The translations under genes were made by a program, and so were the position numbers. Of a DNA stretch of 61,925 nt, positions 29,208-61,530 are shown in pieces. The notes beneath the pieces were generated by a model. That model worked only from the letters and a program-made list of their open reading frames with translations, searched no databases and was not told where the DNA came from. This DNA is from Natronorubrum thiooxidans (GTDB lineage: Archaea > Halobacteriota > Halobacteria > Halobacteriales > Natrialbaceae): NCBI RefSeq assembly GCF_900156475.1, contig NZ_FTNR01000017.1, positions 1 to 61,925 on the forward strand. The letters run 5' to 3'. The number at the start of each line of letters is the position of its first letter. Position 1 is the stretch's first letter.

Positions 29208-30536
29208 ATGCCAGACGGTATCAGTAGACGAAACTTTGTGGCGTACGGTGGCGCAGCAGCAGGTGCCGCACTTGCTGGGTGTATTGGTGGCGACGATGGT
29301 CCAGCACGACCACTGCAGTGGATCGGCCCGGACTGGGCAGTCAGTGACGAGCAGGCCGCGAAAATGGAGGAGATGTCGGGTGTCGAGGTGAACACAACGA
29401 TCGCAACGATCGGAGACACACAGGCACAACTCCTCGGTGGCGGCTCCGAAAACACGGACGTATTCACCTCGGACACGACCGGATCTGGGGCACTCACTCG
29501 AGACAACCCGGTGACGATTCCAATGCCGGTCGAGGATCTGGAAAACTGGGACGAAGAGCAGATTTCCGATCTGTTCACGAATCCAGCCGAGCGACTCAGC
29601 CACCTCGGCGAGCAAGTCGAAACGGTCAACCAGGAGCTGTGGGTCGACGGCGACACCCGCGACGAGATTCTGTTCTCGCCGTATGCCTACAACTTCGACG
29701 CGATGGGGTACAACCCGTCGTTCGTCGACGACGTCTCCCTGTGGAGTACGCAGTTCGACGAACAGTACGAAGGTGAGGTCATCGTCGGCGAGACCGCGGC
29801 GATCACGATCCCGCAGGCGATCATGCACCTGCTGGACAACGACATGATCGACGGTGACATCGGCGAGTTGAACAATCCAACACAGGACCAACTCGATACG
29901 GCGATTGACTTCCTCATCGAGCAGAAAGAAGCCGGGCAGTTCCGCTCGACCTGGGAAGCCTACGGCGAGTCCGTGACGCTGATGGCCGGCGAGGAAGCGG
30001 TTATCGGCGACATCTGGCAGCCGGCGGCGATGGACGTTCGCCGAGAAGGGACGCCGTGTACCTACGCCACGATGAGCGAAGGCATTCAGGGCTACCGGTA
30101 CTGGTACGGCGGCATGGCGACCCTCGAGGGCGCACGCGAGCGCCAGAACGTCGACCAGGTCACGTTCCTGTACGATCAGGTCCACCTCGGTGCGTGGTTC
30201 CCCGGCTTCGTGCAAGGTCGTGGCTACTCGGTTCCCCACTACGAAAACGAAGAGCTCGTCCGTGACGGCTCAGATGACTCCGGCGAGGGAATGGGGCCGG
30301 AGTACTACGACTGGGCGTACCGCGGCGAGGCCACGTACGAGGAGATCGACGAGCCGGCACTGTTCGATCCGCTCGATTACGACTGGTCGATGGAGGAAGG
30401 CTCGCCCGACTCGAACGGCGGCACCCGTGATAGTGGGCCGATCGAAGAGCGGATCGACCGCATCGGCTTCTTCCAGATTTGGCCCAGCGAGGCTGACTAC
30501 ATGGTCTCCCGGTGGGAGGACTTCCTAGCTGCCTAA
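29208..30536 (+). CDS. ABC importer substrate-binding lipoprotein (polyamine type)
   Basis: 442 residues. Tat signal with RRNF at 7-10, a short hydrophobic stretch and a lipobox ALAGC (Cys25), so it is exported folded and anchored by a lipid, as is usual in haloarchaea. The mature part follows the PotD/extracellular-solute-binding fold (LLGGGSENTDVFTSDTTG, YAYNFDAMGYNP, GDIWQPAAMDVR). The ligand cannot be read; polyamine-type binding proteins also bind other small amines and cyclic amides. First gene of a block with the permease at 30585. Confidence 0.87.
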   Translation: MPDGISRRNFVAYGGAAAGAALAGCIGGDDGPARPLQWIGPDWAVSDEQAAKMEEMSGVEVNTTIATIGDTQAQLLGGGSENTDVFTSDTTGSGALTRDNPVTIPMPVEDLENWDEEQISDLFTNPAERLSHLGEQVETVNQELWVDGDTRDEILFSPYAYNFDAMGYNPSFVDDVSLWSTQFDEQYEGEVIVGETAAITIPQAIMHLLDNDMIDGDIGELNNPTQDQLDTAIDFLIEQKEAGQFRSTWEAYGESVTLMAGEEAVIGDIWQPAAMDVRREGTPCTYATMSEGIQGYRYWYGGMATLEGARERQNVDQVTFLYDQVHLGAWFPGFVQGRGYSVPHYENEELVRDGSDDSGEGMGPEYYDWAYRGEATYEEIDEPALFDPLDYDWSMEEGSPDSNGGTRDSGPIEERIDRIGFFQIWPSEADYMVSRWEDFLAA

Positions 30537-33446: not shown

Positions 33447-33470
33447 ATATGCCACCAGTACTCAGGATAG

Positions 33471-41155: not shown

Positions 41156-41182
41156 CCTCCAGCAGAGAGTGACTTCTTGTGT

Positions 41183-43282: not shown

Positions 43283-45111
43283 CGACACATCCAGACCACA
43301 CGGACCAGACGGCACCGGACGACGAACACGACGAGACGACCGCGGCGGACGTTCTCCGCGAACGCGAGATCGATCCGGTGACGATGCAGGTCATCGGTGG
43401 CGAACTCGATACGATCGCCCAGGAGATGGGGTACAAACTCATCCGCTCGTCGTACTCCTCGATCATCCGCGAGAGCGAGGACATGGGCGCGGGGATCTTC
43501 ACTACGGATTGTCGCGAGCTGTGTGAAAGCGACTCGACGCCGATGCACGTCGGCTCGCTGATCGGCTACCTCGACGGCATGTACAAGACGTTCGAGGAAC
43601 GCGGCGTCGACCGCGAGGAGATTATCAACGAGGGCGACGTCTTCATCCACAACCACCCCCACTACGGCGCGAGCCACTCGCCGGATATCGCCGTCGCTGT
43701 CCCCATCTTCTACGAGGGCGAGCACATCGCCTGGGCGGCGAACACGGCCCATCACCTCGACATCGGCTCAGCGACGCCCGGTCTCGCGATCGACCTCGAG
43801 GACATGTACGCCGAGGGAAGCCTGTTCCGGGCGACGAAAGTCTACGATCAGGGCGAGCGGGTCGACGGCATCTGGGACTTCATCGAGGACAACGTTCGGA
43901 CGCCCCGAGAGGTCATCGGCGACCTGCAGGCCCAGATTTCCTCGTGTCACGTCGGCGAAAATCGGTATCTCGACCTCGTCGAAAAGTACGGGCTCGAGGA
44001 GATCCAGCAGGCCGGCGAGGCGCTGATGGACTACGCCGAGGCGCTCCTGCGCAACGAGATCAGGACGATCCCCGATGGGACGTACTACGCCGAGGACTAT
44101 CTCGACGACGACGGTCGAAACCGGGGGCAGCGACTGAAGATCGCTGCGGAGGTGACCGTCGACGGCAGCGACATCACCGTCGACATGAGCAAATCGGCGG
44201 ATCAGACGCCGACGGGGTACAACATTCCGTTCCACGGCTCGACCGACGTCTGTATCTACTTCACGATTCGGTCGCTCCTGATGGACACCTTCGTTCGCGA
44301 CGAGTACCTGCCACAGAACTCGGGGACGTTCGCACCCGTCCATCCGAAGGCCAGACCGGGCTGTATGTTCAATCCGACGCCGCCGACGTCGGCGTTCGCC
44401 CGCATTAATCAGGTGGACAAAATGAGCGACCTCATTATCAAGGCGCTCGCGGATGCGATCCCCGAGAAGGTCTGTGCGGGCACCTGCGGACAGGTGTACT
44501 TCGTGAGCTACGGCGGGACGAACGACGACGGCGAGTACTGGGTCTACCTCGAGGTCAACGAGGGCTCCTACGGCGGTCGGCCCGAAGCGGACGGCCTCGA
44601 CGCGGTCGACGCGCTCGTTCACAACACCAAAAACCGGCCCGTCGAAGACATCGAACTCTCCCATCCGATGCGGATCGAACGCTACGGGCTCCGTGAGGAC
44701 GGCCACGGTGCCGGACGGACTCGAGGCGGCCACGGGATCGTCCGCGAGTCGCAGTTCCTCACGGACGCCGTGATGACGATGGAAGGCGACGGCAACACGT
44801 ACCGCCCGCACGGCCTCTTCGGTGGCGGCGAGGGGACTCACGGCGACTTGAAACACATCAAAGCCGACGGCGAGGTGCTGGATCTTCATTCGAAAGAGTC
44901 CGGCTACAAGTTCGAAGCCAACGATCGTGTGCTGATCAAGACGGCGAGCGGCGGCGGCTACGGCGATCCGTACGAGCGGCCAGCCGACGCCGTCTACGAG
45001 GACTACCTCGACGGACTGGTTTCGGAGACCGACGCCCGCAAGGAGTACGGCGTCGTCATCGAAGACGGCACGCTTGATACGGCAGCGACGGACGAACTGC
45101 GGAACGAGTAG
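43279..45111 (+). CDS. hyuB: ATP-dependent hydantoinase/oxoprolinase subunit B (copy 1)
   Basis: 610 residues. HyuB family: IDPVTMQVIGGELDTIAQEM start after a 35-residue acidic extension, VFIHNHPHYGASHSPDIAVA with metal-binding His/Asp residues, TRGGHGIVRE and the C-terminal ASGGGYGDPYERP. The subunit carries the metal site where the phosphorylated ring is opened. Coupled to the copy 1 hyuA. Copy 2 (48915) is clearly a different protein, not a recent duplicate. Confidence 0.9.
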   Translation: MTTHPDHTDQTAPDDEHDETTAADVLREREIDPVTMQVIGGELDTIAQEMGYKLIRSSYSSIIRESEDMGAGIFTTDCRELCESDSTPMHVGSLIGYLDGMYKTFEERGVDREEIINEGDVFIHNHPHYGASHSPDIAVAVPIFYEGEHIAWAANTAHHLDIGSATPGLAIDLEDMYAEGSLFRATKVYDQGERVDGIWDFIEDNVRTPREVIGDLQAQISSCHVGENRYLDLVEKYGLEEIQQAGEALMDYAEALLRNEIRTIPDGTYYAEDYLDDDGRNRGQRLKIAAEVTVDGSDITVDMSKSADQTPTGYNIPFHGSTDVCIYFTIRSLLMDTFVRDEYLPQNSGTFAPVHPKARPGCMFNPTPPTSAFARINQVDKMSDLIIKALADAIPEKVCAGTCGQVYFVSYGGTNDDGEYWVYLEVNEGSYGGRPEADGLDAVDALVHNTKNRPVEDIELSHPMRIERYGLREDGHGAGRTRGGHGIVRESQFLTDAVMTMEGDGNTYRPHGLFGGGEGTHGDLKHIKADGEVLDLHSKESGYKFEANDRVLIKTASGGGYGDPYERPADAVYEDYLDGLVSETDARKEYGVVIEDGTLDTAATDELRNE

Positions 45112-46887: not shown

Positions 46888-48912
46888 ATGACTCGAGCAG
46901 GTATCGATATCGGTGGGACGTTTACCGACCTGATAATCTTCGATGAAGAGACTGGATGTATCGAAATTACGAAAACGCCGTCCACGCCGGACAACTCCGC
47001 GGAGGGGGTGATCAACGGGCTGACGAAAGCGGAGACGGCGATCAGCGATCTGGACTTCTTCTCGCACGGGTCGACGGTCGGGACCAACGCCCTGATCGAG
47101 CGCGACCTGCCGCGAACGGGCCTGATCACGACGGAGGGCTTCCGGGACGTCCACGAGATCCGAGACGCGACCAAAGAAGACGTCTGGGACGCTTATACCG
47201 ACGTCGCAGACCCCTACGTAACGCGACGTGATCGACTCGAGGTAACGGAGCGAATCGATTACAACGGAGAGGTCGTCGCGCCGCTCGACGAAGACGACGT
47301 TCGGGAGGTCGTGCAGGTGTTCAAAAAGCGGGGCATCGACACGATCGCGATCTCGCTTATCAACGCCTACGTTAACGGCGACCACGAACGGCGGGTGCAA
47401 GAGATCGTCGAAGAAGAGCACCCCGACGCGTTCGTCTGTTGTTCACACGAGATCCTCCCGGAGATGTTCGAACACGAGCGGACGAGTACGACGATCGTCA
47501 ACGCGGCGCTGGTGCCCGTCGTCAGGGAGTATCTGACCGATCTCGCAGACCAACTCGAGTCCCGAGGCTACGAAAACGACGTCCTCGCGATGCACTCCGG
47601 CGGGGGCGTGATGACCACCGAAGCGATCGCCTACTACGCGGCCCGGATCGCCAACTCCGGCCCGACGGCGGGGGCGATCGCCGGCCAGTACATCGCCGAA
47701 CAGTGCGGGTTCGACAACGCGATCGGCTTCGACATGGGCGGCACCAGCGTCGACGTCTCGCTCACCTACGGCGGCGACATCGAGATGACTGACGAGTGGG
47801 CCGTCGAGTACGGCTACCCGATCATGTTTCCCTCGACGGATATCAAGACGATCGGCGCGGGCGGTGGCTCGATCGCCTGGATCGACGAGGGTGGCTCGCT
47901 CCGTGTCGGGCCGCGCAGCCAAGGGGCAGACCCCGGCCCCGCCTGTTACATGCGCGGTGGTGACAAGCCGACAATCACCGACGCGAACGTGTTGCTCGGC
48001 TGGGTCGACCCCGACAAGTTCCTTGGGGGTGAGATGGACGCCACGGCTGGCCCGTCTCGAGAGGTAATCGAACGCGACATCGCCGAGCCACTCGATCTCG
48101 ACGCGACCGAAGCAGCGTCCGCGATCGAACAGATCGCCATTGCAAACATGTGCAACGCCGTCAGGCTCGTCTCGACGAGCAAGGGCTACGACCCCCGTGA
48201 CTTCGCCATCGTCGCCTTCGGCGGGGCCGGACCAATGCACGCCGCCCACGTCGCCCGCGAGATGAACATTCCGAACGTCATCGTCCCGCCGTACCCCGGG
48301 ATCAACTCCGCACTGGGCTGTCTGCTCGTCGACGTCGAACACGACCTTTCGAAGACGTTCGTCGCGAACGCAACCGAGGAGATCGCCGACGACCTGGAAG
48401 CGGCGCTCGCCGAGGTCGAATCGGAGATCCTCGAGCGACTACGCGCCGAAGAGATCGAAGACGACCAGATCCGCCTCGAACACGAGGTGAAGATGCGCTA
48501 TGCCGGTCAGTGGCGATCGCTGGCCGTCCCGTGTTCGTTGCCGATCGAGAGCGTCGACGAGATCCGTGAGCGGTTTCACGAGGAACACGAACGCGTCTAC
48601 GCCTACTCGGATCGCGACGCGACCGTCGAAATCTATGGAATCCGCGTCACGGGACGTGGCCTCGTCGAGAAGCCGTCGTTCCCCGAAATCGAGTCGGGCA
48701 GCGTCGACGACGCTCACCTCGGCACTCGAGCGGTGTACTTCGAGGACGCAGGCGGATTCGTCGAGACGGATCTCTACCAGCGCGAGCAACTGGGTGCTGG
48801 GGCGACGTTCAGTGGCCCCGCGATCGTCGAACAGATGGATTCCACCGTGGTCGTGCCCCCCGAGGCCAGTGTGGAAGTCGAACAGACGGGGAACCTGATC
48901 ATCGAGATATAA
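46888..48912 (+). CDS. hyuA: ATP-dependent hydantoinase/oxoprolinase subunit A (copy 2)
   Basis: 674 residues. ASKHA motifs: AGIDIGGTFTDLIIF at the N-terminus, GFDMGGTSVDVSL at about 280 and AFGGAGPMHAAHVARE at about 445. It shares the family core with the first copy but differs through most of the length, so the pair probably acts on another ring or enantiomer. A TTATATA box at 46848-46854 lies 34-40 nt upstream. It is followed by hyuB copy 2 after 2 nt. Confidence 0.9.
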   Translation: MTRAGIDIGGTFTDLIIFDEETGCIEITKTPSTPDNSAEGVINGLTKAETAISDLDFFSHGSTVGTNALIERDLPRTGLITTEGFRDVHEIRDATKEDVWDAYTDVADPYVTRRDRLEVTERIDYNGEVVAPLDEDDVREVVQVFKKRGIDTIAISLINAYVNGDHERRVQEIVEEEHPDAFVCCSHEILPEMFEHERTSTTIVNAALVPVVREYLTDLADQLESRGYENDVLAMHSGGGVMTTEAIAYYAARIANSGPTAGAIAGQYIAEQCGFDNAIGFDMGGTSVDVSLTYGGDIEMTDEWAVEYGYPIMFPSTDIKTIGAGGGSIAWIDEGGSLRVGPRSQGADPGPACYMRGGDKPTITDANVLLGWVDPDKFLGGEMDATAGPSREVIERDIAEPLDLDATEAASAIEQIAIANMCNAVRLVSTSKGYDPRDFAIVAFGGAGPMHAAHVAREMNIPNVIVPPYPGINSALGCLLVDVEHDLSKTFVANATEEIADDLEAALAEVESEILERLRAEEIEDDQIRLEHEVKMRYAGQWRSLAVPCSLPIESVDEIRERFHEEHERVYAYSDRDATVEIYGIRVTGRGLVEKPSFPEIESGSVDDAHLGTRAVYFEDAGGFVETDLYQREQLGAGATFSGPAIVEQMDSTVVVPPEASVEVEQTGNLIIEI

Positions 48913-48914
48913 CC

Positions 48915-50888
48915 ATGTCACAGACAGACGCACACACAGATATCGACCTCGATCCGGTCACCTTCGAGGTTCTGCGAAGCTCGTTTACGAACCTCGTCGA
49001 CCGGATGGCCGAACAGATCCAGCGAACGTGTTACTCGTTCGTGATCTACAACCGCGACTTCAGCAACTGCCTGAACGACGCGGAAGGGAACACGGTAATG
49101 CAGGGCTCACAGGACATCGCCGTCCACGTCGGCACGCTGCATTACACCTGCAAGGAGACCCTCGAGTACTTCGAGGGGAACATCAACCCGGGCGACGTCT
49201 ACATCGTCAACGACCCGTATCTGGGGGCGACACACATCAACGACGTCCGGATCATGCGGCCGGTGTTCTACGACGACGAACTCATCGCCGTCACCCAATC
49301 GAACGGTCACTGGGCCGACGTCGGCGGCCCGTCGCCGGGCTCGTTCAACATCGAGGCGAACAGCCACTTCGCGGAAGGGTTGCGGATTCCGCCGCTGAAA
49401 ATCTGGGACCGCGGCGAGTTCCAGGACGACGTCGCCAACCTGTTGGTGACGAACATGCGCCTCTCGGAAGACCGCATGGGCGACCTGCGTGCCCAGACCG
49501 AAGCGACCAGAATCGCCGAAGAGCGGCTGCTCGAACTCGTCGACAAGTACGGGATCGACACCGTGAAAACGGCGTTCGACGAGTCGAAAAACTACGTCGA
49601 ACGGATCATGCGCGAGCGGATTCGCGACCTCCCGAACGGCACCTGGCGAACACAGGATTACATCGACGGTGACCCGGCGAAAGAGGAGGGCTTCGTCACG
49701 ATCGACGTCGAGATGACGATCGACGACGACGAGGTCCACTACGATCTCTCGGGGTCGGACGAGTACATCGGCAACTTCCTGAACTCCACGTATGGGACGT
49801 CGTTTTCGGCGGTGATCGCCGGGACGAAGATGTTCTTCCCGGACGTGCCGCTCAACTCGGGGATGTACCGGGTCGTCGACGCGACGCTTCCCGAAGGAAC
49901 AGTGGTCAACGCCCCAGAGCCCGTCCCCGTTACGGGGTCGGTTGCGGGGGCGTACGAGAAAGTCATGAACGCCATCTTCGAGATGTGGTCGGAGGTGTTG
50001 CCAGAGCGGGCGATGGCCTGTGCCTTCAACCTCGAGTATCTGCTCTCGGGTGGGACGGACCGCCGTCCCGACCGTGATGGCGAGGAGTTCATGTGGTACG
50101 ACTGGATGGCCGGCGGCTGGGGCGGTCGAGACGGCTTAGACGGCGCGAACGCGACCGCACCCGTTTTCGGTGCGGGACTGGCCGTCCAGTCGCTCGAGGG
50201 CCAAGAACGCGACACGCCGCTACTGACGAGCCAGCACTCGATCGTCACGGACTCGGCCGGCCCCGGGGAGTTCCGCGGCGGCTGTGGCGTCGAGAAAGGC
50301 GGACGCTTGCTCGAGTGTGAAAACAGCGTCATCTCCTACTGTTCCGATCGGGCGTACTCGGTCACGTGGGGATTAGACGGCGGCCTGCCGGGCGTGCCCC
50401 ACGGCGTTACCCTCACGCGTGCAGATGAGGATCCCAAAGATCTCGGGACCGTGTTCTCGAACAGACCGATCGAGACTGGCGATCAGTTCACTCGACCGTC
50501 CTCCGGCGGTGGCGGCTTTGGCGATCCCCTCGAGCGCGACCCCGACGCGGTCCGCGAGGACGTCATCGACGACTACGTCTCGATCGAACGCGCGGCGAAA
50601 GATTACGGCGTGGTGATCGACGCCGTCGATCCGGATCTGTGCGAGTACGAGATCGATCACGAAGCGACGGCGGACAAACGCGACCACATCCGCGAGCACC
50701 GCGAGGGCTGGCTCGAGGCAGACCCCGAGTCGGTCGCCGAACGCTACCGCGAGGGCGACCTCGATCAACTGGATCTCGTCCGACGGTACGGCGTGATCCT
50801 CGAGTGGGAATCCGGCGAACTCCTCGAGCGGACGACGGCCCAGTTCCGGGAGATGCTCGAGCGGCGAGCCGTGGCTGAGTGGCGCTGA
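48915..50888 (+). CDS. hyuB: ATP-dependent hydantoinase/oxoprolinase subunit B (copy 2)
   Basis: 657 residues, 47 longer than copy 1. LDPVTFEVLRSSFTNLVDRM start, VYIVNDPYLGATHINDVRIM (metal region), SNGHWADVGGPSPGSF and the C-terminal SSGGGGFGDPLERDP. The extra length is a C-terminal tail after residue 560 (about 95 residues, charged, helical). Translated with copy 2 hyuA. Confidence 0.9.
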   Translation: MSQTDAHTDIDLDPVTFEVLRSSFTNLVDRMAEQIQRTCYSFVIYNRDFSNCLNDAEGNTVMQGSQDIAVHVGTLHYTCKETLEYFEGNINPGDVYIVNDPYLGATHINDVRIMRPVFYDDELIAVTQSNGHWADVGGPSPGSFNIEANSHFAEGLRIPPLKIWDRGEFQDDVANLLVTNMRLSEDRMGDLRAQTEATRIAEERLLELVDKYGIDTVKTAFDESKNYVERIMRERIRDLPNGTWRTQDYIDGDPAKEEGFVTIDVEMTIDDDEVHYDLSGSDEYIGNFLNSTYGTSFSAVIAGTKMFFPDVPLNSGMYRVVDATLPEGTVVNAPEPVPVTGSVAGAYEKVMNAIFEMWSEVLPERAMACAFNLEYLLSGGTDRRPDRDGEEFMWYDWMAGGWGGRDGLDGANATAPVFGAGLAVQSLEGQERDTPLLTSQHSIVTDSAGPGEFRGGCGVEKGGRLLECENSVISYCSDRAYSVTWGLDGGLPGVPHGVTLTRADEDPKDLGTVFSNRPIETGDQFTRPSSGGGGFGDPLERDPDAVREDVIDDYVSIERAAKDYGVVIDAVDPDLCEYEIDHEATADKRDHIREHREGWLEADPESVAERYREGDLDQLDLVRRYGVILEWESGELLERTTAQFREMLERRAVAEWR

Positions 50889-51510: not shown

Positions 51511-52026
51511 TCAGTCCGTTCCGTCGGTGACGGTCTCGATCATCTCCTCGGACATGTTCGCGACCGTCCCCGTGTTAGTCTTCAGTTCGTTCATCACGAA
51601 CGTCGAGGCAGTCTCGTTGACGCCATCGATCGTCACGATCTCGTCAATGAGGTCGTTCATCTGCTCGCGGTCTTGTACGCGCGAGTGGACGATAAAGTCG
51701 ACGTCGCCCATCGTATAGTACACTTGAAACACGCCGTCGATCGCGGTGAGCGAACGACCAATATCTTCGGCGTAGCCACTCTCGTGGGCCACCGATACCT
51801 CCGTGATGACCATCATCTCGAGTCCGAGTGCGAGCGGATCGACGTCAGCTGACACCGTCGTGATGACGTCGGCATCTTTGAGCTTGTTTAGCCGGTAATG
51901 GACCGCCGATTTCGAGAGACCGAGATCCGCCGCCAGCTCCGAAAGGTTAACGTCGGCATCGTGCTCGACGCGCTCGAGGATCTTGATGTCCGTCTCGTCG
52001 ATGGTCGGTCGGTCGTTGGGTTCCAT
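51511..52026 (-). CDS. Lrp/AsnC family transcriptional regulator
   Basis: 171 residues. N-terminal HTH (DETDIKILERVEHDADVNLS, then LAADLGLSKSAVHYRLNKLK) and a C-terminal RAM effector domain (residues 75-150, MGDVDFIVHSRVQDREQMND). Lrp-type regulators respond to amino acids and often act on neighbouring genes. It sits directly after (75 nt downstream of) the aminotransferase gene on the same strand, so it may control that gene in response to its amino-acid substrate. Confidence 0.9.
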   Translation of the reverse strand: MEPNDRPTIDETDIKILERVEHDADVNLSELAADLGLSKSAVHYRLNKLKDADVITTVSADVDPLALGLEMMVITEVSVAHESGYAEDIGRSLTAIDGVFQVYYTMGDVDFIVHSRVQDREQMNDLIDEIVTIDGVNETASTFVMNELKTNTGTVANMSEEMIETVTDGTD

Positions 52027-52101: not shown

Positions 52102-53451
52102 CTACTTATCCATCGCCGCGTCAGAGACCTCGAGTGCGACGTCGAGGGCTGCGACGGCCTCGTCGATATCGTCTTCGGTGATCGGAAGCGGCGGCGCGAT
52201 AATGAGCGTGTTGATCATGTTGCCAACGTAAACGCCTTCGTCCCACGCGGCGCTGCTGACCTCGTCGACGACGGTCGAGCCCATCGAGATCTTGTCGGAA
52301 CGGTGGCCGAAGGGGACGCGCTCGTCGGGGTCTTTCGTCAACTCGATCCCGCGGAAGAGGCCGACACCTCGTGTCTCGCCGACGCTTGGATGCTTTTCTG
52401 CGAGTTCCTCGAGTCGCTCCCCGAGGTACTCTCCGACGCGGTTAGCGTGTGAGATCAGGTCCTGCTCTTGATAGCTGGTGACCGCAGCGAGCCCGGCGGC
52501 ACAGGCGACGGGGTGGCCCGCGTAGGTGTGGCCGTGACAGAACATCTCGTTTTCGAAGTGGGCAGCGATCTCGTCGGTGACGATCGTCGCGCCAAGTGGT
52601 GCATAGGCCCCGCTGAGCCCTTTTGCCATCGACATAATGTCGGGTGTCACGTCGAAGACGTCACAGCCGAACCACTCGCCGGTGCGTCCGAAGCCGCTCA
52701 TCACCTCGTCGCAGATGAGCAACGCGCCGTGATCGTGGGCGATCTCCTTGAGCCGGGGGAGATACTCCTTCGGCGGGACAAGAATTCCGTTCGAGCCGAC
52801 GACGGGTTCAACGATCACTGCCGCGACGGTGTCGCCCTCGAGCATCAGCATCTCCTCGATGTACTCGAGGCTCTCCATGGGCTCGAGCGTCGAGCCGTAG
52901 GCGTACGGGTCGGGGGCTTTGATCGAACCGGGGACGCCGGGTTCGGCCATTAGCCGCCGTGGGTCGCCCGTGACGCTGATCGAGCCGGCGGTGGCACCGT
53001 GATACGAGCGGTAGCGGGAGATGATCTTCTGTTTGCCCGTATACATGCGGGCGATCTTGATCGCGGCCTCGACGGCCTCCGTGCCACTGGTCGAGAAGAA
53101 CGTCTTCGAGAGGTTCCCCGGCGTCACTTCTGCGAGTTTCTCACCCAGCTTCGCTCGCGGTTCGGTCGTAAAGCCCGGGGCGAAGTACGCGCCCTCGTGG
53201 GCCTGTTCGGCCATCGCATCGGCGACGGTGTCCGCGGAGTGACCGAGGTTCGAACACATAAGCTGTCCCGAGAAATCGATGTACTCCCCGCCGTCTGCCG
53301 TAGTAAATCGGACGCCTGAGCCGCCGGTGACCTCCGTCGGAGAAACCTCACTCTGGAACGACCAAGTGCCGAACACATACTCTTTGTCCAGCCGTTCGGT
53401 CTCGGTCGCATCCGCCGGAAGCACGTCATCGGATGATTGCGTATCTGACAT
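52102..53451 (-). CDS. Class III aminotransferase (beta-alanine/omega-amino acid type)
   Basis: 449 residues. PLP fold with FFSTSGTEAVEAAIKIARMY, ISRYRSYHGATAGSISVTGD, ICDEVMSGFGRTGEWFGCD and the Schiff-base lysine in DIMSMAKGLSGAYAPLGAT (about residue 285). The family includes beta-alanine:pyruvate and GABA aminotransferases. Paired with the semialdehyde dehydrogenase in the neighbouring divergent gene, it would convert beta-alanine or 3-aminoisobutyrate to malonate or methylmalonate semialdehyde. ATG 53451 was preferred to 53478. Confidence 0.9.
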   Translation of the reverse strand: MSDTQSSDDVLPADATETERLDKEYVFGTWSFQSEVSPTEVTGGSGVRFTTADGGEYIDFSGQLMCSNLGHSADTVADAMAEQAHEGAYFAPGFTTEPRAKLGEKLAEVTPGNLSKTFFSTSGTEAVEAAIKIARMYTGKQKIISRYRSYHGATAGSISVTGDPRRLMAEPGVPGSIKAPDPYAYGSTLEPMESLEYIEEMLMLEGDTVAAVIVEPVVGSNGILVPPKEYLPRLKEIAHDHGALLICDEVMSGFGRTGEWFGCDVFDVTPDIMSMAKGLSGAYAPLGATIVTDEIAAHFENEMFCHGHTYAGHPVACAAGLAAVTSYQEQDLISHANRVGEYLGERLEELAEKHPSVGETRGVGLFRGIELTKDPDERVPFGHRSDKISMGSTVVDEVSSAAWDEGVYVGNMINTLIIAPPLPITEDDIDEAVAALDVALEVSDAAMDK

Positions 53452-53600
53452 TGATATATCCCCTACGTTGTTCCTCATCCTGCATTAATCTTTACCAAAC
53501 CCTCATTTCAGAAGACTGTTTCCCGACAATCCCATTTTCTATAGAATTCTGTCCAGCTATTTCCGGTTACCACTGAACAGCGTAGATCGAATACCGAAGA

Positions 53601-53607: not shown

Positions 53608-53630
53608 CATTGGTTGTGTTATCTCCCCCC

Positions 53631-55112
53631 ATGGTCGAGTTAGAATCACTCTCGGAAACGGGGGAGGTACAGAACTACGTCGGCGGCACGTGGACGCACC
53701 CAGATGACGGCGACGGGCTGCCCGTCGACAATCCAGCGACCGGCGACGAACTCTCGTTCGTCCCGTTTAGCTCCGCACCGGACGTCGACGATGCCGTTGC
53801 GGCCGGCCTCGAGGCGTTCGAGGAGTGGTCGACGACGCCCGTCGAAGCCCGGATTCAGCCGCTGTTCAAGCTGAAAGGGCTTCTCGAGGACCACCAGGAG
53901 GAACTGGCGGAGATTCTCGTCGAAGAACACGGCAAGACGCTCGCGGAGGCTCGCGGCGAACTTCGTCGTGGCATCGAGAACGTCGAGGTCGCCTGTGGCA
54001 TTCCCTCGATGATGCAAAGTGGCACCCTGTTGAACGCGGCTCCCGATATCGACGAGAGCGCCGTTCGCAAACCGCTCGGGGTTTTCGCAGCTATCACCCC
54101 CTTTAATTTCCCAGGCATGATTCCCCTGTGGTTCCTGCCGTACGCCGTCGCGACCGGCAACAGCTTCATTCTGAAGCCGAGCGAACGCGATCCACTAGTC
54201 GCCCAGCGCATGTTCGAACTCATCGACGAGGCGGGCTTTCCCGACGGCGTCGTCCAACTCGTCAACGGGAGCGTCGACACCGTCAACACGCTGCTCGAGC
54301 ACGAGGACATCGCCGGCATCTCCTTCGTCGGCAGCACCCCCGTCGCGGAACACGTCTACGAGACCGCCGCCGCACACGGGAAACGTGTCCAAGCCCAAGG
54401 CGGCGCGAAAAACCACATCATCGTCACCGAAACGGCGGATCTCGAGTTCGCCGCCGAAAAAACGGTCGCATCGGCGTGTGCCTGCGCCGGCGAGCGCTGT
54501 CTCGCTAACGACGTCGTCCTCGTCGAAGAAGGCGTCTACGACGAGTTCGAGGAACTAGTGCTCGAGAAAGCCGAGGCCCAGACGGTCGGCTACGGCCTCG
54601 ACGAGGGCGTCGACATCGGCGCGCTCATCACAGCCGAACACGAACAGCGCGTGCGTGAGTTCATCGAAACCGGCATCGACGAAGGTGCCGACCTCCTCCT
54701 CGATGGCCGCGACGTCACCGTCGACGGCTACGAGGACGGCAACTTCCTGGCACCGTCCGTGTTCGGCGGCCTGACCCCGGAGATGACCATCACTCGAGAA
54801 GAGATCTTCGGGCCGGTGTTCGGACTGATGGCTGTCGAAGACATGGACGAGGCACTCGAGGTCCTCAACATGAGCGACTTCGGGAACGCGGCGAGTCTCT
54901 TCACGGGCAGCGGCCTCGACGCCCGCAAGTTCCGCCACCGCGCCGACGTGGGGAACCTCGGCGTCAACGTCGGCACCTCCGCCCCGATGGCCTTCTTCCA
55001 CTTCGGCGGCCAGCGCGATTCGTTCTTCGGCGACCTCCACGCACAGGGAGAGGACATGATCCACTTCTACACGGACAAGAACGTCTACATCGAGCGCTGG
55101 CCAGATAACTGA
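53631..55112 (+). CDS. CoA-acylating (methyl)malonate-semialdehyde dehydrogenase
   Basis: 493 residues. ALDH family with the MMSDH marks: QNYVGGTWTHPDDG start, AAITPFNFPGMIPLWFLPYA (cofactor region), LKPSERDPLVAQRMFELIDE, SFVGSTPVAEHVYETAAAHG, and the catalytic cysteine in CACAGERCLANDVV. The FFGDLHAQGEDMIHFYTDKN C-terminus is typical of MMSDH. It oxidises methylmalonate or malonate semialdehyde to propionyl- or acetyl-CoA with loss of CO2. It would close the route from pyrimidine-derived beta-amino acids to acyl-CoA. ATG 53631 starts at the leaderless position. Confidence 0.92.
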   Translation: MVELESLSETGEVQNYVGGTWTHPDDGDGLPVDNPATGDELSFVPFSSAPDVDDAVAAGLEAFEEWSTTPVEARIQPLFKLKGLLEDHQEELAEILVEEHGKTLAEARGELRRGIENVEVACGIPSMMQSGTLLNAAPDIDESAVRKPLGVFAAITPFNFPGMIPLWFLPYAVATGNSFILKPSERDPLVAQRMFELIDEAGFPDGVVQLVNGSVDTVNTLLEHEDIAGISFVGSTPVAEHVYETAAAHGKRVQAQGGAKNHIIVTETADLEFAAEKTVASACACAGERCLANDVVLVEEGVYDEFEELVLEKAEAQTVGYGLDEGVDIGALITAEHEQRVREFIETGIDEGADLLLDGRDVTVDGYEDGNFLAPSVFGGLTPEMTITREEIFGPVFGLMAVEDMDEALEVLNMSDFGNAASLFTGSGLDARKFRHRADVGNLGVNVGTSAPMAFFHFGGQRDSFFGDLHAQGEDMIHFYTDKNVYIERWPDN

Positions 55113-55200: not shown

Positions 55201-55240
55201 CCGAGTGCCTCGGGGTCACGCCCCGAGGCGGTTCACTCGG
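55201..55240. terminator. Convergent hairpin beside the LLM gene stop
   Basis: GCCTCGGGG (55207-55215), 5-nt loop, CCCCGAGGC (55221-55229): a perfect 9-bp stem. CCGAGT and ACTCGG extend it on both sides with a bulge. It lies at the 3' ends of the convergent ALDH and LLM genes and could end or stabilise transcripts. No T tract follows on either strand. Confidence 0.5.
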
Positions 55241-56270
55241 CTTTGAACTCCGCGAAGACGTCGATCACTTCCTTGACGTTCGGGCCGAGCGAGTACAGCG
55301 ACGGTTCGGTACAGCCAGCATCACAGTACTCCGCGACCTTCTGAACACAGTCTTCTGGCGTCCCGGCGGCGACGATGTTCGTGACGACCTCGTCGGGGAC
55401 CAGTCGGCTGGCGCGCTCGATATCCTCGGCCGAGGCAGGCCAGCCACCGAGTTCCTCGCCGACCTGTTCGCCGACTTCGGGGTCGATCCCCGACGCCTTC
55501 GTGATGTGGGGCTGTTGGCCGATGTACTGGGTGACCAGCCCGCGAGCGTTGTCGATGGCGACGTCCGCGTCCTCGTCCATCGAGACCGCGATCAGCTGTG
55601 GCCGGTCGACGTCGTCGATCGTCCCGCCCTGTTTCTCGACGCCCTCGGTGAGCTTCTCCATCGCCCGTTCGTTGTGTGCTGGCGGGATCAGGTAATTCAT
55701 GTAGACGCCGTCGATGGTGCCGTTACCGACCAGTTCGCCAGCCATCTTGTTCATCGTCATCCCGGTCGCCCCAATGTAGATCGGCACCGTCCGCGGCTCG
55801 GCGTTGGCCCGCACCAGATCGAGTTCGATGTCGTCGACCTGAATGTACTGCCCGTCGTAGGTGACGGTCTCGAGATCGAGTAGCTTCCTGAGCACGGTAC
55901 AGTACTCCCACATGTACCGAAGCGGATTTTGGCGGTCGATTCCCACTTTGCTCGCAAGCGGATCCCACCACGCGCCGATACCGAGCATCGCCCGGCCGCC
56001 AGACAGTTCATGAAGCGTCGAGAACGTCTGAGCCATCAGGGCGACGTTTCGCGTATAACAGTTGGTCACGCCCGGCCCGAACTTGACCGAGTCAGTCACC
56101 TGCGTGTACGCCCCCATAATCGTCATGGCGTCGCGAACGAGCCGCGACTCGCCCTGCCAGACCGAGTCGAATCCCTTGGACTCGGCGTACTTTGCGTACT
56201 CGATTTCGTCGGCGACATCCTCGCTCTCCCAGTTCCAGATGCCGAGTCGATCGAACGTCGGATCGCTCAT
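55233..56270 (-). CDS. Luciferase-like (LLM) flavin/F420-dependent oxidoreductase
   Basis: 345 residues, TIM-barrel luciferase superfamily. Visible: YAKYAESKGFDSVWQGESRL start, VKFGPGVTNCYTRNVALMAQ (as in F420-binding Mer, with non-prolyl cis peptide region), STLHELSGGRAMLGIGAWW and VPIYIGATGMTMNKMAGE. Such enzymes use F420 (methylene-tetrahydromethanopterin reductase type) or FMN plus oxygen. It overlaps the M20 hydrolase gene by 4 nt (ATGA), so the two work together. A role in reducing the pyrimidine or hydantoin ring, or opening it like RutA, is possible; the sequence is closer to Mer than to RutA as far as can be seen. Confidence 0.85.
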   Translation of the reverse strand: MSDPTFDRLGIWNWESEDVADEIEYAKYAESKGFDSVWQGESRLVRDAMTIMGAYTQVTDSVKFGPGVTNCYTRNVALMAQTFSTLHELSGGRAMLGIGAWWDPLASKVGIDRQNPLRYMWEYCTVLRKLLDLETVTYDGQYIQVDDIELDLVRANAEPRTVPIYIGATGMTMNKMAGELVGNGTIDGVYMNYLIPPAHNERAMEKLTEGVEKQGGTIDDVDRPQLIAVSMDEDADVAIDNARGLVTQYIGQQPHITKASGIDPEVGEQVGEELGGWPASAEDIERASRLVPDEVVTNIVAAGTPEDCVQKVAEYCDAGCTEPSLYSLGPNVKEVIDVFAEFKAE

Positions 56271-57505
56271 TTCGCACCTCCGGCGAGGTCAACGGCAGCG
56301 TTCGCAATCGTCGACGACGCCTTGTAGCAGTCGTCCCAACTCGTGTACTCCGACTCGTTGTGGCTCTTGCCGTTCTCGCTCACCGCGAACACCATTCCCG
56401 TATCGCAGATGCTGTGCATATGTGTTGCGTCGTGTCCCGCGCCGCTGAAGATCTGCATACTATCGTAGCCGAGCTCGTCCGCAGCCGTCTGGACCGCATC
56501 GACACACCCGTCGGCGAACTCGACCGCTGGAGCACGCATTCGGTCTTCGTACTCCCACTCGAGGCCCTCCCGCTCGGCGGCCCACTCCGCTTCCTCGAGG
56601 ACGCGCCGACGGGCTTCGTCGATCACGTCGTCGGAGGGATCACGGAACCCCCAGGTGAAGGTGACTTCCTCGGGGATTATATTGATCGAGTTCGGCTTGG
56701 CGTCGATGTAGCCCGTGGTGCCGACAGTGCGCTCGCCGAGCGTGCTCGGAATGCGCCGGATCTGGGTGATGACGTCGGCCGCCGCGACCAGCGCGTCCTG
56801 TCGGTAGTGCATCGGTGTCGGCCCGGAGTGGTCGGCCTCGCCGTAGAACGTGATCGCCCCCCACGTGAAGCCGACGATTCCCGTGACCACGCCGACGTCC
56901 TTTTTGTTTTCCTCGAGGTAGGGGCCCTGCTCGACGTGGAGTTCAAGATACGCCTCGTACTCCTCGGGGGGCTCACAGGGTTCCTCGCCCTTGTAGCCGA
57001 TGCGCTCGAGTTCTTCTTCAAAGACGTTCCCATCGACGTCGGTCTTGGCGTACTCTTCCTCGAGGTCGTGTGCGCCGGCCCAGACGCCGCTGCCCTGCAT
57101 CGCGGGCTGGAACCGCGACCCTTCCTCGTTGGTCCAGTTGACGATCTCGATGGGGTGTTCGGTCTCGAGCTCGTTGTCGTTAAGCGTCCGGATCAGCTCC
57201 AGAGCGGCGATGACGCCGAGTGCACCGTCGTAGATACCGCCGTAGGGCTGGGAGTCGAGATGAGAGCCGACCAACACTGGCTTTGCGTCGGGATCAGTGC
57301 CCGCACGGCGTCCGAACATGTTTCCGAACTCATCGACCCGGACCGAGAGATCGGCCGCAGTCAGCTGCTCCATAAACCAGTCGCGGATCTCCTTGTCGTC
57401 GTCGGACAGCGCGAGTCTGTGTAAGCCACCATCGGCAGTCCCACCGATTTCGGCCTGCTCTTTCATCGTCGATACGAAGCGCTCTCGCTGTAACGCAATG
57501 GGCAT
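56267..57505 (-). CDS. M20 family N-carbamoyl amino-acid amidohydrolase (HyuC/beta-ureidopropionase/allantoate type)
   Basis: 412 residues from ATG 57505. Zn ligands: His82 in VLVGSHLDSQPYGG, Asp93 in IYDGALGVIAALE, Glu127/128 in NEEGSRF, His in YLELHVEQGPYLEE and the C-terminal GAGHDATHMHSI. The lid domain (about 212-320) has GITFYGEADHSG-like sequence (AITFYGEADHSGPTPM). It cleaves the carbamoyl group from N-carbamoyl-beta-alanine, N-carbamoyl-L-amino acids or allantoate, giving CO2, ammonia and the amino acid. The 66-residue upstream extension is cysteine-rich and was left out. First gene of a two-gene operon with the LLM enzyme. Confidence 0.88.
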   Translation of the reverse strand: MPIALQRERFVSTMKEQAEIGGTADGGLHRLALSDDDKEIRDWFMEQLTAADLSVRVDEFGNMFGRRAGTDPDAKPVLVGSHLDSQPYGGIYDGALGVIAALELIRTLNDNELETEHPIEIVNWTNEEGSRFQPAMQGSGVWAGAHDLEEEYAKTDVDGNVFEEELERIGYKGEEPCEPPEEYEAYLELHVEQGPYLEENKKDVGVVTGIVGFTWGAITFYGEADHSGPTPMHYRQDALVAAADVITQIRRIPSTLGERTVGTTGYIDAKPNSINIIPEEVTFTWGFRDPSDDVIDEARRRVLEEAEWAAEREGLEWEYEDRMRAPAVEFADGCVDAVQTAADELGYDSMQIFSGAGHDATHMHSICDTGMVFAVSENGKSHNESEYTSWDDCYKASSTIANAAVDLAGGAK

Positions 57506-57584: not shown

Positions 57585-58352
57585 CTACGAAAACGTAATA
57601 TCGAGTTCGAGTTCGTTGACTGTGCCCAGTAGCATCGACGGCACTTCCTCGGTGAACCACTCACCTTGCATTCGATACGTCGGCCCCGAAAGGCTGATCG
57701 CACCGAGGACTGCTCCCGACTGTTCCAGCACCGGCACGCCGACAGCGGTCAACCCCTTCGTATACTCCTCCTCGTTGAATACGTAGTTCTGCTCCCGCGC
57801 AATCTGCAGTTCCGCCCGCAGCTCGTCGACGTCCGTGACAGTATACTCGGTGAATCGCTCGAGTTCGAGTTTCGCGAGCAACGCTTCCATGTACGGCACG
57901 GGAAGCGCGCTAAGAATTGCCTTTCCTGCAGCAGTCGCATGGAGAGGAACGCTCTCTCCAATATCCGAGTTCGTTTTCACGCCATACTCACCCGTCTCGC
58001 GGTGAACGTAGACCCCTTTTCCGTGTTCTTCGACGATGAACTGCGCGCGCTCGCCGGTCCGTTCGGCCAGTCGGCTCACTTTGTCGTACGTGAGTCGATA
58101 CGCCTCTTTTCGCCATCGAGCGTGCTCGCCGAGTCTGAGAAACCGGAGACTGAGGTAGTACTCGTTGCCCTCTTTGACGACGTACTCGTGCTGGTGCATC
58201 GTCGACAGATGGTCGTGAACGGTGCTTTTTGGCATCTCGAGTCGCGTCGCAACTTCGGTCACACGTGCGCCGTTGAGTTCGTCCAGAACGTGGATGATCT
58301 CGAACAGCCGATCAACGGACTTTACTGACGAACCTGGTTCGACGCTTGCCAT
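57585..58352 (-). CDS. IclR family transcriptional regulator
   Basis: 255 residues. Winged-helix N-terminus (KSVDRLFEIIHVLDELNG, then EVATRLEMPKSTVHDHLSTM) and a C-terminal GAF-like ligand domain (residues 75-250, including GKAILSALPVPYMEALLAKL and GAISLSGPTYRM). IclR regulators usually sense the substrate or first intermediate of the nearby pathway. It lies 79 nt upstream of the M20 start on the same strand and could control the M20-LLM operon. Confidence 0.92.
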   Translation of the reverse strand: MASVEPGSSVKSVDRLFEIIHVLDELNGARVTEVATRLEMPKSTVHDHLSTMHQHEYVVKEGNEYYLSLRFLRLGEHARWRKEAYRLTYDKVSRLAERTGERAQFIVEEHGKGVYVHRETGEYGVKTNSDIGESVPLHATAAGKAILSALPVPYMEALLAKLELERFTEYTVTDVDELRAELQIAREQNYVFNEEEYTKGLTAVGVPVLEQSGAVLGAISLSGPTYRMQGEWFTEEVPSMLLGTVNELELDITFS

Positions 58353-58591
58353 GTTATGTTATACAATGCCACTATTCCTAAATGACCGTTTCGCTGTTCA
58401 AATCGGTGATACTAGGGATTTCCTTATATAATTAAAGCAGGATTCACGGCGACCAGTGCGCACCGAGTTGGACGATCCACTGGTTTCGTCGATCCCACCG
58501 ACACGAATCTTTTTGCCGCTCTCGAGCGACGTCGTGGTATCCACCCGGACGAACCGACGTGTGCGCCTCGTCCGCGATGGACCACCCGACT

Positions 58592-59233
58592 ATGCCAGCA
58601 GAGACACCAGAGGTATACGATCGTGCAGGACTGGACAACGAAATCGGCTACGGCGACACGCCCGCACTGGTCGTCGTCGATCTGCAACAGGGCTTTACCG
58701 ATCCGTCGTGTCCGCTCGGTGGCGACCTCACAGGCGTCGTCGAGCGAACGAACGCGCTCCTCAAGGCCGCCCACGAGGCCGACTGTCCCGTCGTGGCGAC
58801 CCGCATTGTCACCACCCACCCGGAGGCAGCCGATCTCGGGACCTGGGTAGAGAAGATCCCCACACTCGAGATACTGGCTGCAGGTTCGGAGTGGGTCGCG
58901 TTCGACGAGCGACTCGACCTTCGCGACGACGACCACCGACTGGACAAGCGACAGGCGAGTGCGTTTCACGAAACCGAACTCCACTCGATGCTGTCCGCGT
59001 GGGGCGTCGATACGCTCATCGTCGCTGGCTGTACGACCAGCGGCTGCATCCGCGCGACAGCCGTCGACGGCTGTGCCCACGGCTTTCGCGTGATCGTCCC
59101 CGAGGGGAGCGTCGGCGACCGACTCGAGGAGCCACACGCGGCGAACCTCTTCGATATCCACGCGAAGTACGGCGATGTCAAACCAGTCGACGAGGTGTGT
59201 GAGTATCTTCGCGATGGCCCAAAACCGAGCTAA
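58592..59233 (+). CDS. Isochorismatase-fold hydrolase, N-carbamoylsarcosine-amidase-like
   Basis: 213 residues from ATG 58592 (MPAETPEVYDRAGL; an ATG at 58577 is also possible). Catalytic triad Asp30 (VVVDLQQGF), Lys119 (LDKRQASAF) and Cys152 (GCTTSGCIRATAVDG). The TTSGC loop and DRAGL start resemble N-carbamoylsarcosine amidohydrolases and RutB-like ureidoacrylate hydrolases. It releases ammonia and CO2 from a ureido compound. Its stop codon overlaps that of the convergent SDR gene. Confidence 0.87.
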   Translation: MPAETPEVYDRAGLDNEIGYGDTPALVVVDLQQGFTDPSCPLGGDLTGVVERTNALLKAAHEADCPVVATRIVTTHPEAADLGTWVEKIPTLEILAAGSEWVAFDERLDLRDDDHRLDKRQASAFHETELHSMLSAWGVDTLIVAGCTTSGCIRATAVDGCAHGFRVIVPEGSVGDRLEEPHAANLFDIHAKYGDVKPVDEVCEYLRDGPKPS

Positions 59234-59982
59234 TGCATCGCGTCCCCGCCGTCGGGGCTGAGCGTCTGGCCCGTATAATAGCTGCTCTCCTCGGAGGCGA
59301 GGAAGACGACCGTCGGGACGATATCCTCGACCTCGCCGAGTCGATCCATCGGAAGCTGTGCCGCTTTCGCCTCGCGCCACTCCTCGCTGATGTCGTCCAA
59401 CAGCTCGGTCTGGACCGGTCCCGGCGCGACGGCGTTGACTCGAACTGTCGGCGACACCTCGCGGGCGAGCGCCCGCGTCATCGCGATCACGCCGCCTTTG
59501 GCAGCCGAGTAGTGGACCAGCTCTTCGCCGCCGACGATCCCAAGTTGTGAGGCCACATTGATGATCGAGCCGTCGCCCGACTCGAGCATCCCGGGAAGGG
59601 CAAACCGCGTCGGGAGGAACGTCCCGCGCAAGTCCACCGCGATCGTTTCGTCCCACATCTCGACGGGCATCTCCTCGAGCGGTGACTGGGTCAGGATCCC
59701 CGCGTTGTTAACGAGGGTGTCTATCGCTCCGAACGCAGCTTCGAACGCGTCGATCATTGACTCAACATCGGCGGCGTCGCTGACGTCGGCTTCGAACGTG
59801 CGTGCGGTGCCCCCGTTCGCTTCGATCGTCTCGACGACGTCGTCGGCGTGGCTCGATCCTTCCTGTGGCGGATAGTTGACGCCGACTGTCGCGCCCTCTG
59901 CAGCCAATCCCTCAGCGATGCCGCGTCCGATGCCTTTGCTCGCTCCCGTCACTAACGCCTGTGTACCGTCTACTCGGCCCAT
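59230..59982 (-). CDS. Short-chain dehydrogenase/reductase (FabG-like)
   Basis: 250 residues from ATG 59982. Cofactor motif TGASKGIGRG, NNAGILTQSP, catalytic Ser in INVASQLG and YSAAKGG (Tyr-x3-Lys). After strand 2 it has NYPPQEGSS, which allows NADP binding. The frame runs upstream to 60054 but the extra residues are basic and were left out. It overlaps the end of the convergent isochorismatase-like gene by a few bases. Substrate unknown. Confidence 0.88.
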   Translation of the reverse strand: MGRVDGTQALVTGASKGIGRGIAEGLAAEGATVGVNYPPQEGSSHADDVVETIEANGGTARTFEADVSDAADVESMIDAFEAAFGAIDTLVNNAGILTQSPLEEMPVEMWDETIAVDLRGTFLPTRFALPGMLESGDGSIINVASQLGIVGGEELVHYSAAKGGVIAMTRALAREVSPTVRVNAVAPGPVQTELLDDISEEWREAKAAQLPMDRLGEVEDIVPTVVFLASEESSYYTGQTLSPDGGDAMH

Positions 59983-60114
59983 ATACGACAGTCCAGTACA
60001 AACCGTATAACTGTTCACGTCAGTCCGTATCTCGTTTCGCTGCTTCGTCCCCAATCATATCAAATAGATTGTGGTTTCCTGTAAAGTTAAGCCCTCCCTC
60101 CGTCAGTATGGTGT

Positions 60115-61530
60115 ATGGTAGAAGCCACCAGTAGAGTCGTTAACGCACGAGTCGTTACCCCGTCCGGAACGATCCACGGCGGAATGGCCGCCAAAGACGG
60201 CAAAATCGTCGCCATCGGGTCGGACAGTTCGCTGCCCGAAGCTGACGAAACGATCGACGCGGATGGGAATTACCTCATTCCGGGCATCATCTGCCCGCAC
60301 AACCACATGGGAATCTCTCGATACGAGAACGACTATCACACCCAGTACGAACTCGATATGGAAACCGAGACGAAAGCCTGTCTCGCCGGCGGTGTGACGT
60401 CGTTCTTTACGTTCCTCCTCCAAGAAGAGCCGTACGTTCCCGACATGGACTTCTTCGTCGACACCGGCGAGCAACAGTCCTACATCGACTTCGGGTTTCA
60501 TGCGATCGTCCATCAGGACCATCATATCGACGAAATCGACGCCCTCGCTGCGGAAGGAATCCGGTCGTTTAAACTGTTTTTCAACATGTACAAGACGTCG
60601 GCTCCCGAGCTGGGAATCGGCCACTCCGACGCCGGTCGCGTCTACACCGTTTTGAAAAAGACGGCCGAGATGGAAAACGCAGTCGTCATGTTTCACGCCG
60701 AAAACGACGATCTCGGTCCGGTGAAAGTCGAGGAAATCAAATCGGAGGGGCGAGACGACCTCAGTGCGTGGGCCGACGCCTCCCCGGGAATCAGTCAGGC
60801 AATGCAGATTGAACAGATCGGCATGCTCACCGAACACACCGGCGCGACGACGTACGTCGTCCACAACAGTATGGAAGAAACTGTCGACGCACTCGGCCGG
60901 TACAACGACCGCGGCGTCAGTATCCACGGCGAAACCCTGCCGAGTTTCCTCGCCAACCACTGCGAAGACGAGGACGTCGGCACCTGGGGAAAGATTTCGC
61001 CACCGATCGGCTACAAATCGGATCAGGAGGCCCTCTGGAAGGCCCTCCGAAACGGCACGTTCGACCACGTCGGCACCGACCACTGCCCGTACCAACTCGA
61101 GTTCAAAGGCCCCCGCGACGGCAGCGTCTGGGAGGCCCCACCGGGCGATCAGGGTCTGCAAACGTTCCTTCCACTCATGCTGAGCGAAGGCGTAAACAAA
61201 AACCGGATCTCGATGGAGCGGCTGGTCGAGGTCTGCTCGACGAACAACGCAAAGCGGTTCGGCATCTATCCGCGGAAAGGTGCGCTCGTTGAAGGTGCAG
61301 ACGCCGACGCCGTCATCGTCGATCTGCAAAAGGAGTTCACTGTCGATGAAGACTACCTCTACGGGCTGGACAACCGCTGGTGTTCGTCATTCGGCCGCGA
61401 GCTGACTGGCGCGCCGACACACACGATCAAGGGCGGTGAACTCGTCGTCGAACACAACGACGTTCTCACCGAAGGCGGGATCGGCTCGTACCTGCCACGC
61501 TACGAAGACGGCGTTCAACTGGCTGAATGA
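60115..61530 (+). CDS. Dihydropyrimidinase/hydantoinase (amidohydrolase superfamily)
   Basis: 471 residues. Binuclear metal site: CPHNHMGI (His62, His64), the carbamylated lysine in RSFKLFFNMY (Lys153), His194 in VVMFHAEND, His250 in YVVHNSMEE and Asp322 in HVGTDHCPYQ. It reversibly opens dihydrouracil, dihydrothymine or hydantoin rings to the N-carbamoyl amino acid, the substrate of the M20 enzyme. It differs from the family in having Cys-Pro before the HxH in place of Asp-(A/P/V). The IHGGMAAKDGKIVAIG start is normal. Confidence 0.9.
   Translation: MVEATSRVVNARVVTPSGTIHGGMAAKDGKIVAIGSDSSLPEADETIDADGNYLIPGIICPHNHMGISRYENDYHTQYELDMETETKACLAGGVTSFFTFLLQEEPYVPDMDFFVDTGEQQSYIDFGFHAIVHQDHHIDEIDALAAEGIRSFKLFFNMYKTSAPELGIGHSDAGRVYTVLKKTAEMENAVVMFHAENDDLGPVKVEEIKSEGRDDLSAWADASPGISQAMQIEQIGMLTEHTGATTYVVHNSMEETVDALGRYNDRGVSIHGETLPSFLANHCEDEDVGTWGKISPPIGYKSDQEALWKALRNGTFDHVGTDHCPYQLEFKGPRDGSVWEAPPGDQGLQTFLPLMLSEGVNKNRISMERLVEVCSTNNAKRFGIYPRKGALVEGADADAVIVDLQKEFTVDEDYLYGLDNRWCSSFGRELTGAPTHTIKGGELVVEHNDVLTEGGIGSYLPRYEDGVQLAE

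Follow-up and report, generated by a model that had tools for sequence, protein, structure and literature searches.

Which enzyme would reduce the pyrimidine ring in a haloarchaeal gene cluster that has candidates for the later steps of reductive pyrimidine breakdown? This question was raised by a stretch of 61,925 nucleotides from Natronorubrum thiooxidans (contig NZ_FTNR01000017.1, analysed in full and hereafter called the window), in which an LLM-class oxidoreductase is coupled to a putative decarbamoylating hydrolase. We consider it likely that this LLM is an F420H2-dependent pyrimidine (uracil/thymine) reductase that replaces dihydropyrimidine dehydrogenase (PydA/PreTA); its catalysis is untested, biochemically as well as genetically.

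The hydrolase-LLM gene pair and its neighborhood

The pair is encoded on the minus strand and consists of an M20-family N-carbamoyl amidohydrolase (56267..57505, 412 aa), transcribed first, and the Mer-like LLM (55233..56270, 345 aa), the start of which lies inside the stop codon of the hydrolase. The preliminary description of this DNA had linked a Mer/F420-like enzyme to a decarbamoylating hydrolase by an ATGA overlap, and this overlap was found at 56267..56270 of the minus strand (tcat on the plus strand), with GGAGGTG directly before the LLM start. The LLM matched PF00296, its sole Pfam family, with 201 bits (gathering score 27.9) and showed the TIM-barrel LLM fold by Foldseek, and is thus a member of the LLM-class oxidoreductases. 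The hydrolase, whose N-terminus is MPIALQRERF, scored 411.6 bits against the TIGR01879 hydantoinase/carbamoylase model (cut-off 204). Allantoate and N-carbamoyl-amino-acid hydrolases are also among the members of the M20 family; the role of beta-ureidopropionase (PydC) proposed here is inferred. The nearest named record was a Natronorubrum bangense plasmid, with an LLM of 98% identity and identical gene order. A longer GTG start of the hydrolase at 57703 was rejected, being unsupported by the 412-codon annotation in this near-identical locus.

The genes around the pair include the set of the reductive Pyd pathway, namely dihydropyrimidinase, ureidopropionase, beta-alanine aminotransferase, and semialdehyde dehydrogenase. 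A cyclic amidohydrolase of the dihydropyrimidinase/D-hydantoinase group (60115..61530, plus strand), to which we assign the PydB role by inference, had PRK13404 and TIGR02033 as its best models, both below cut-off, and the metal-binding HNH, SFKLFF lysine, and GTDHCPY motifs were readable in its sequence. A class III aminotransferase (52102..53478, minus strand; PF00202), the proposed beta-alanine/beta-aminoisobutyrate transaminase, is co-conserved with the LLM and with a CoA-acylating (methyl)malonate-semialdehyde dehydrogenase (MMSDH; 53610..55112, plus strand), which exceeded the cut-off of TIGR01722 (524 bits, cut-off 448.5). The assignment of the dihydropyrimidinase and the aminotransferase of the window is to the general family only, since both were below equivalog cut-offs. 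An Lrp/AsnC regulator (51511..52026, minus strand; PF01037 and PF13404) adjoins the aminotransferase in a BarR-like position that is kept in relatives, and an IclR-family regulator (57585..58352, minus strand; PF01614 and PF09339) lies upstream of the hydrolase-LLM pair. The neighborhood accordingly offers candidates for each step from dihydropyrimidine to acyl-CoA, and only the uracil-reducing step is without a gene.

The wider cluster of the window contains an isochorismatase-fold hydrolase (58559..59233, plus strand; PF00857), an SDR dehydrogenase (59230..60054, minus strand; PF13561) that is a conserved member of clusters of the ABC/hydantoinase type, and two HyuA-HyuB pairs of the hydantoinase/oxoprolinase type (41177..45111, matching caprolactamase-subunit models below cut-off, and 46888..50888, both plus strand), as well as an amidase gene. 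Two potA1/potA2-like ABC transporter ATPases (23034..25366, plus strand) are found near the LLM-M20 pair in relatives too, and the substrate-binding protein of the same transporter is encoded at 29208..30536 (plus strand). Near these transporter genes, a thermosome/TCP-1-like protein below thermosome cut-offs was observed at 31563-33455, and TCP-1-family genes recur in two related clusters (L061 and L063). The protein encoded at 34428-35264 belongs to the polysaccharide-deacetylase family and has a weak, allantoinase-like match to PuuE; several relatives conserve such a gene close to the LLM, and the similar nodB-like HVO_A0301 is co-induced in Haloferax volcanii.

Canonical reductases and the distribution of the LLM

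The preliminary description had proposed that the LLM may supply a missing ring-reducing step, a claim that would be refuted by a canonical dihydropyrimidine dehydrogenase in the same pathway. The N. thiooxidans genome, with an estimated completeness of 100%, was searched family by family, and no canonical dihydropyrimidine dehydrogenase was found in it; the DHO_dh family was represented by a single full-length, PyrD-like protein and two short weak matches. Among 293 genomes of the order, none had a PreA match over cut-off (three had weaker matches), and E. coli was detected by the same model as a control. A hidden PreA was rejected on this basis. The LLM itself fails the membership of the PydA/PreA family, which calls for a PreA/DHO_dh-fold FMN domain over the curated cut-off, as it matched PF00296 only.

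In a survey of the same 293 genomes, the LLM had a match at E<=1e-40 in 40, of which 16 carried one with at least 72% identity (clade A) and the rest one with 51-55% identity (clade B); one genome carried both. The M20 orthologue was present in all 16 clade A genomes versus 42/293 overall (Fisher 1.8e-15, not corrected for phylogeny), and the order M20 then LLM, with ends overlapping or almost abutting, was seen in 12 more loci, the tightly spaced pair being kept in several haloarchaeal genera. From this recurrent order and the invariable M20 orthologue, the pairing is not due to chance. The same dihydropyrimidinase was detected in 13 of the 16 genomes, the other three, from the genus of the window, having a different one in the cluster, and the MMSDH orthologue was found in 12 of 14 LLM genomes checked.

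Compact clade A clusters, in Haladaptatus and other genera, comprise a nucleobase permease, the M20 hydrolase, the LLM, a dihydropyrimidinase-like protein, the aminotransferase, MMSDH, and often Lrp; extended clusters, including that of the window, additionally contain the ABC transporter, HyuAB, isochorismatase-fold, and SDR genes. Gene order and orientation varied among the compact clusters and membership was kept, indicating that the co-occurrence with dihydropyrimidinase and with beta-alanine and malonate-semialdehyde genes, for which the preliminary description had asked, is strong and survives gene-order shuffling. Since the compact clusters hold the rest of the Pyd-type set, only uracil reduction is left there without an assigned gene. 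This otherwise complete gene set, the absence of PreA, and the co-occurrence favor the LLM as the supplier of the missing step, with the catalysis inferred. In a close relative (G217; L034 8840-10557), the aminotransferase and MMSDH are gone from between Lrp and the LLM, while the LLM and M20 genes are kept; downstream steps have been lost recently in this genome.

The clades were further compared in a tree of 107 rows. The LLM paralogues of the same genome served as a distant outgroup and gave very long branches, so that we place no confidence in the root separating clades A and B. Clade A formed a single group of 22 rows (SH-aLRT 96), and among labelled members Pyd-type neighbors were found only in clade A and SsnA-type neighbors only in clade B. 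Twenty-nine positions switch between near-fixed states in the two clades, four of which fall within a short insertion around residues 180-184 that distinguishes the clades; the switches include W12-N13-W14-E15 versus Y-L-Q-D, G40 versus A, and Y72 versus W. WNWE was present in 22/22 clade A members. The region of residue 12, at the start of the barrel, is inferred from the LLM fold to belong to the substrate pocket.

Clade B, with 51-56% identity to the clade A LLM, occurs in haloarchaea, Chloroflexota, and Actinomycetota. Its neighbors are SsnA-like, dihydropyrimidinase-like, threonine-synthase-like PALP, D-aminoacylase-like, M20, and xanthine-dehydrogenase (XDH)-like genes, and the locus of Haloterrigena turkmenica also contains npdG, selD, and yqeB. 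When public genomes were scanned, many bacterial members were recovered, chiefly from Chloroflexota and Actinomycetota (50-56% identity), and many of these adjoin SsnA-like, XDH-like, and often NpdG genes. Such neighbors are those of the reductive uric acid pathway, in which Li et al. in 2025 showed YgfK to reduce yanthine; for Chloroflexota, they proposed an F420-dependent protein of the luciferase family in place of YgfK (PMC12507026). They called yanthine reduction directly analogous to PydA chemistry, a PydA homologue being used for it in C. difficile (PMC12507026). By its SsnA placement, this putative yanthine reductase belongs to the same LLM subfamily as the LLM of the window, and the two share the motifs GAWWDPLA and TQY[IL]GQQP, F420-dependent reduction of a ring of the uracil type being proposed for both; in contrast, it falls into the separate clade with YLQD and has SsnA, XDH, and PALP neighbors in place of Pyd-type genes. 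As judged from sequence, clade A is akin to a putative reductase of nucleobase rings and is located in a putative pathway that requires one, and the sister family probably performs the equivalent step in uric acid breakdown. An apparent reductive uric acid pathway was also observed on haloarchaeal replicons (L065, which is H. turkmenica pHTUR01, L052, L062, and L191), with SsnA, HyuA-like, PALP, D-aminoacylase, XDH, and selD/yqeB genes and with an F420-type LLM and NpdG in the place of YgfK. An archaeal occurrence of this pathway is absent from the text of PMC12507026, which does not contain the word archaea.

Cofactor and alternative functions

The solved relatives of the LLM at E<=1e-10 were all F420 enzymes. 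A structure was modelled from 22 sequences with AF2 (pLDDT 82, pTM 0.83), and the top Foldseek matches of this model were Mer, Adf, and FGD (F420-dependent glucose-6-phosphate dehydrogenases), with F420 enzymes ranked before nearly all luciferases and alkanesulfonate monooxygenases. When membership of the F420-dependent LLM subgroup is taken to mean that the nearest characterised relatives use F420, the LLM meets it by sequence and the fold ranking agrees. The use of F420 rather than FMN, which the preliminary description had left to a structural model, is therefore favored by sequence and at the level of the fold, as an inference from homology without bound-cofactor data. In this genome, NpdG was over cut-off and a CofH-like gene was below it.

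The likeness to Mer, the F420-dependent methylene-H4MPT reductase, extends to the closest solved structures (about 30% identity), the TIM barrel, and the predicted F420 site, and Mer models were the best-scoring curated ones (184.9 bits for NF002619 and 177.6 bits for TIGR03555). The LLM might thus be a methylenetetrahydromethanopterin/tetrahydrofolate reductase paralogue of C1 metabolism, but these scores are far below the cut-offs of 276 and 348.7, respectively, no C1 genes are present in the cluster, and a clade as patchy as this (16/293 genomes) is unlike a housekeeping enzyme. Moreover, Mer Glu6, which carries the E6Q mutation in PDB 8QQ8, is not conserved; the aligned residue 12 is Trp in all 22 clade A members and Tyr in the sister clade. 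We rejected a Mer function, which has the least credence among the readings weighed here. Oxidative ring opening by an FMN-dependent monooxygenase, in the manner of RutA, was scarcely more credible. RutA belongs to the same superfamily and cleaves pyrimidines, and the isochorismatase-fold gene nearby has a RutB-like fold; however, the LLM scored 25.3 bits against RutA (cut-off 498.3) and the isochorismatase-fold protein 39 bits against RutB (cut-off 378), and RutA was over cut-off nowhere in this genome. RutA depends on FMN and O2, whereas the fold neighbors of the LLM place F420 enzymes ahead of FMN enzymes, and a dihydropyrimidinase would make little sense after oxidative opening but fits the reductive direction inferred here. 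The ring-opening step that had been offered as an alternative in the preliminary description was consequently abandoned.

A reductase acting on another ring, such as a hydantoin or a purine-derived ureide (yanthine or dehydro-hydantoin), with a beta- or alpha-amino acid other than beta-alanine as the end product, is unlikely but deserves more attention than the foregoing readings. The sister family is tied to purine breakdown (PMC12507026), and the NCS1 permease of the compact clusters resembles allantoin permeases as well. In the window, the HyuAB pairs, the amidase, the isochorismatase-fold hydrolase, and a dihydropyrimidinase that shares only some 30% identity with its compact-cluster counterpart make another cyclic ureide possible. 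Nevertheless, SsnA, XDH-like, and PALP genes are beside none of the clade A members labelled in the tree, the motif at residues 12-15 is wholly unlike that of the yanthine-type clade, and the aminotransferase, MMSDH, and Lrp of the compact clusters fit beta-alanine or beta-aminoisobutyrate. The LLM could also be an accidental or auxiliary operon member, and the actual uracil reductase, perhaps a protein of the AFOR family, would then be encoded elsewhere. In several genomes, M20, dihydropyrimidinase, and aminotransferase genes occur without a clade A LLM, often with an AFOR-family gene, so that the LLM is not needed for every such cluster. Of the 26 genomes that have the M20 orthologue but lack the LLM, 11 had the AFOR orthologue, versus 0 of 16 LLM genomes (Fisher 0.003 within M20 genomes, likewise uncorrected for relatedness), and AFOR never occurred together with the clade A LLM in the 293 genomes. 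The MMSDH orthologue was missing in seven of the 11 AFOR genomes, and AFOR may therefore replace the MMSDH step, the oxidation of malonate semialdehyde; AFOR and MMSDH genes lie side by side in at least one genome (G040), and hence AFOR could still be an alternative ring reductase. Its function in LLM-free clusters is either of the two. Against an accidental role of the LLM, for which we see very little room, its coupling and linkage are kept in several genera with differing gene orders. The LLM-free clusters L158-L161 (e.g., L160:5469-7319 and L160:14411-15646) were also observed to contain NCS2 permeases, M20, dihydropyrimidinase, an AFOR-family protein, CoA-transferase III, and, in most, the aminotransferase.

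A proposed reductive route

With the LLM as a pyrimidine reductase, NpdG would regenerate reduced F420 from NADPH, and C6 of the pyrimidine (uracil or thymine) would accept a hydride from reduced F420, with protonation of C5 by the enzyme, to give the dihydropyrimidine. The dihydropyrimidinase would then open this ring, the coupled M20 hydrolase would decarbamoylate the opened product, and the resulting beta-amino acid would be converted to acetyl- or propionyl-CoA by the class III aminotransferase and MMSDH. Translational coupling would hold the amount of the reductase in proportion to the hydrolysis step, which is irreversible and draws the pathway forward. These data do not decide among uracil, thymine, and another cyclic ureide as the exact substrate. 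The LLM would share with PydA/PreTA/DPYD, including the ferredoxin-dependent PydAc (PMC7332683), the proposed reaction and the position before dihydropyrimidinase and ureidopropionase, but those are FMN/Fe-S flavoenzymes of the DHO_dh fold, whereas the LLM is a small, single-domain, unrelated protein. It may thus work like PydA without being a member of the PydA family, uracil reduction itself being inferred.

A related cluster has been described in H. volcanii (pHV4, HVO_A0293-A0307; PMC6801745). Its gene set is the same, and the gene next to amaB2 belongs to the luciferase family. This gene, HVO_A0295A, was up 5.6 log2 together with amaB2, dpyS, mmsA, gabT6, and the ABC transporter on alanine versus ammonium in a medium with uracil. 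The authors proposed a route from uracil to beta-alanine; in the accessible part of that report, no uracil reductase is named and the luciferase-family gene is left without a role. They also noted that the Lrp of the cluster resembles Sulfolobus BarR, which is a beta-alanine-responsive regulator (PMC4977709). We infer from gene content, without comparison of the sequence, that HVO_A0295A belongs to clade A, and the genes may have been induced by limiting ammonium and not by uracil. In a paper on H. volcanii transposon mutants, uracil appears merely as a supplement.

The preliminary description had held that an F420-dependent dihydropyrimidine dehydrogenase was undescribed. For uracil this stands, as our literature search found no paper joining F420 to uracil reduction (most subscription literature was outside the search), whereas the Chloroflexota LLM had already been proposed for yanthine (PMC12507026). 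The proposal most likely adds a variant of the already known reductive pyrimidine pathway. A broader idea, that F420-dependent LLMs constitute a nucleobase ring-reductase family, with clade A acting on uracil and the sister on yanthine, independent of the PydA/YgfK/UacX flavoenzymes, is in our judgment evenly balanced. H. volcanii, which is genetically tractable and routinely grown with uracil, provides a direct test bed. If the proposal is true, the first step of haloarchaeal uracil breakdown would be filled in an order of which no sampled genome has the classical dehydrogenase over cut-off, F420 enzymes would gain a new reaction class, and the uracil/yanthine pair of ring reductions would have evolved twice, from different protein folds.
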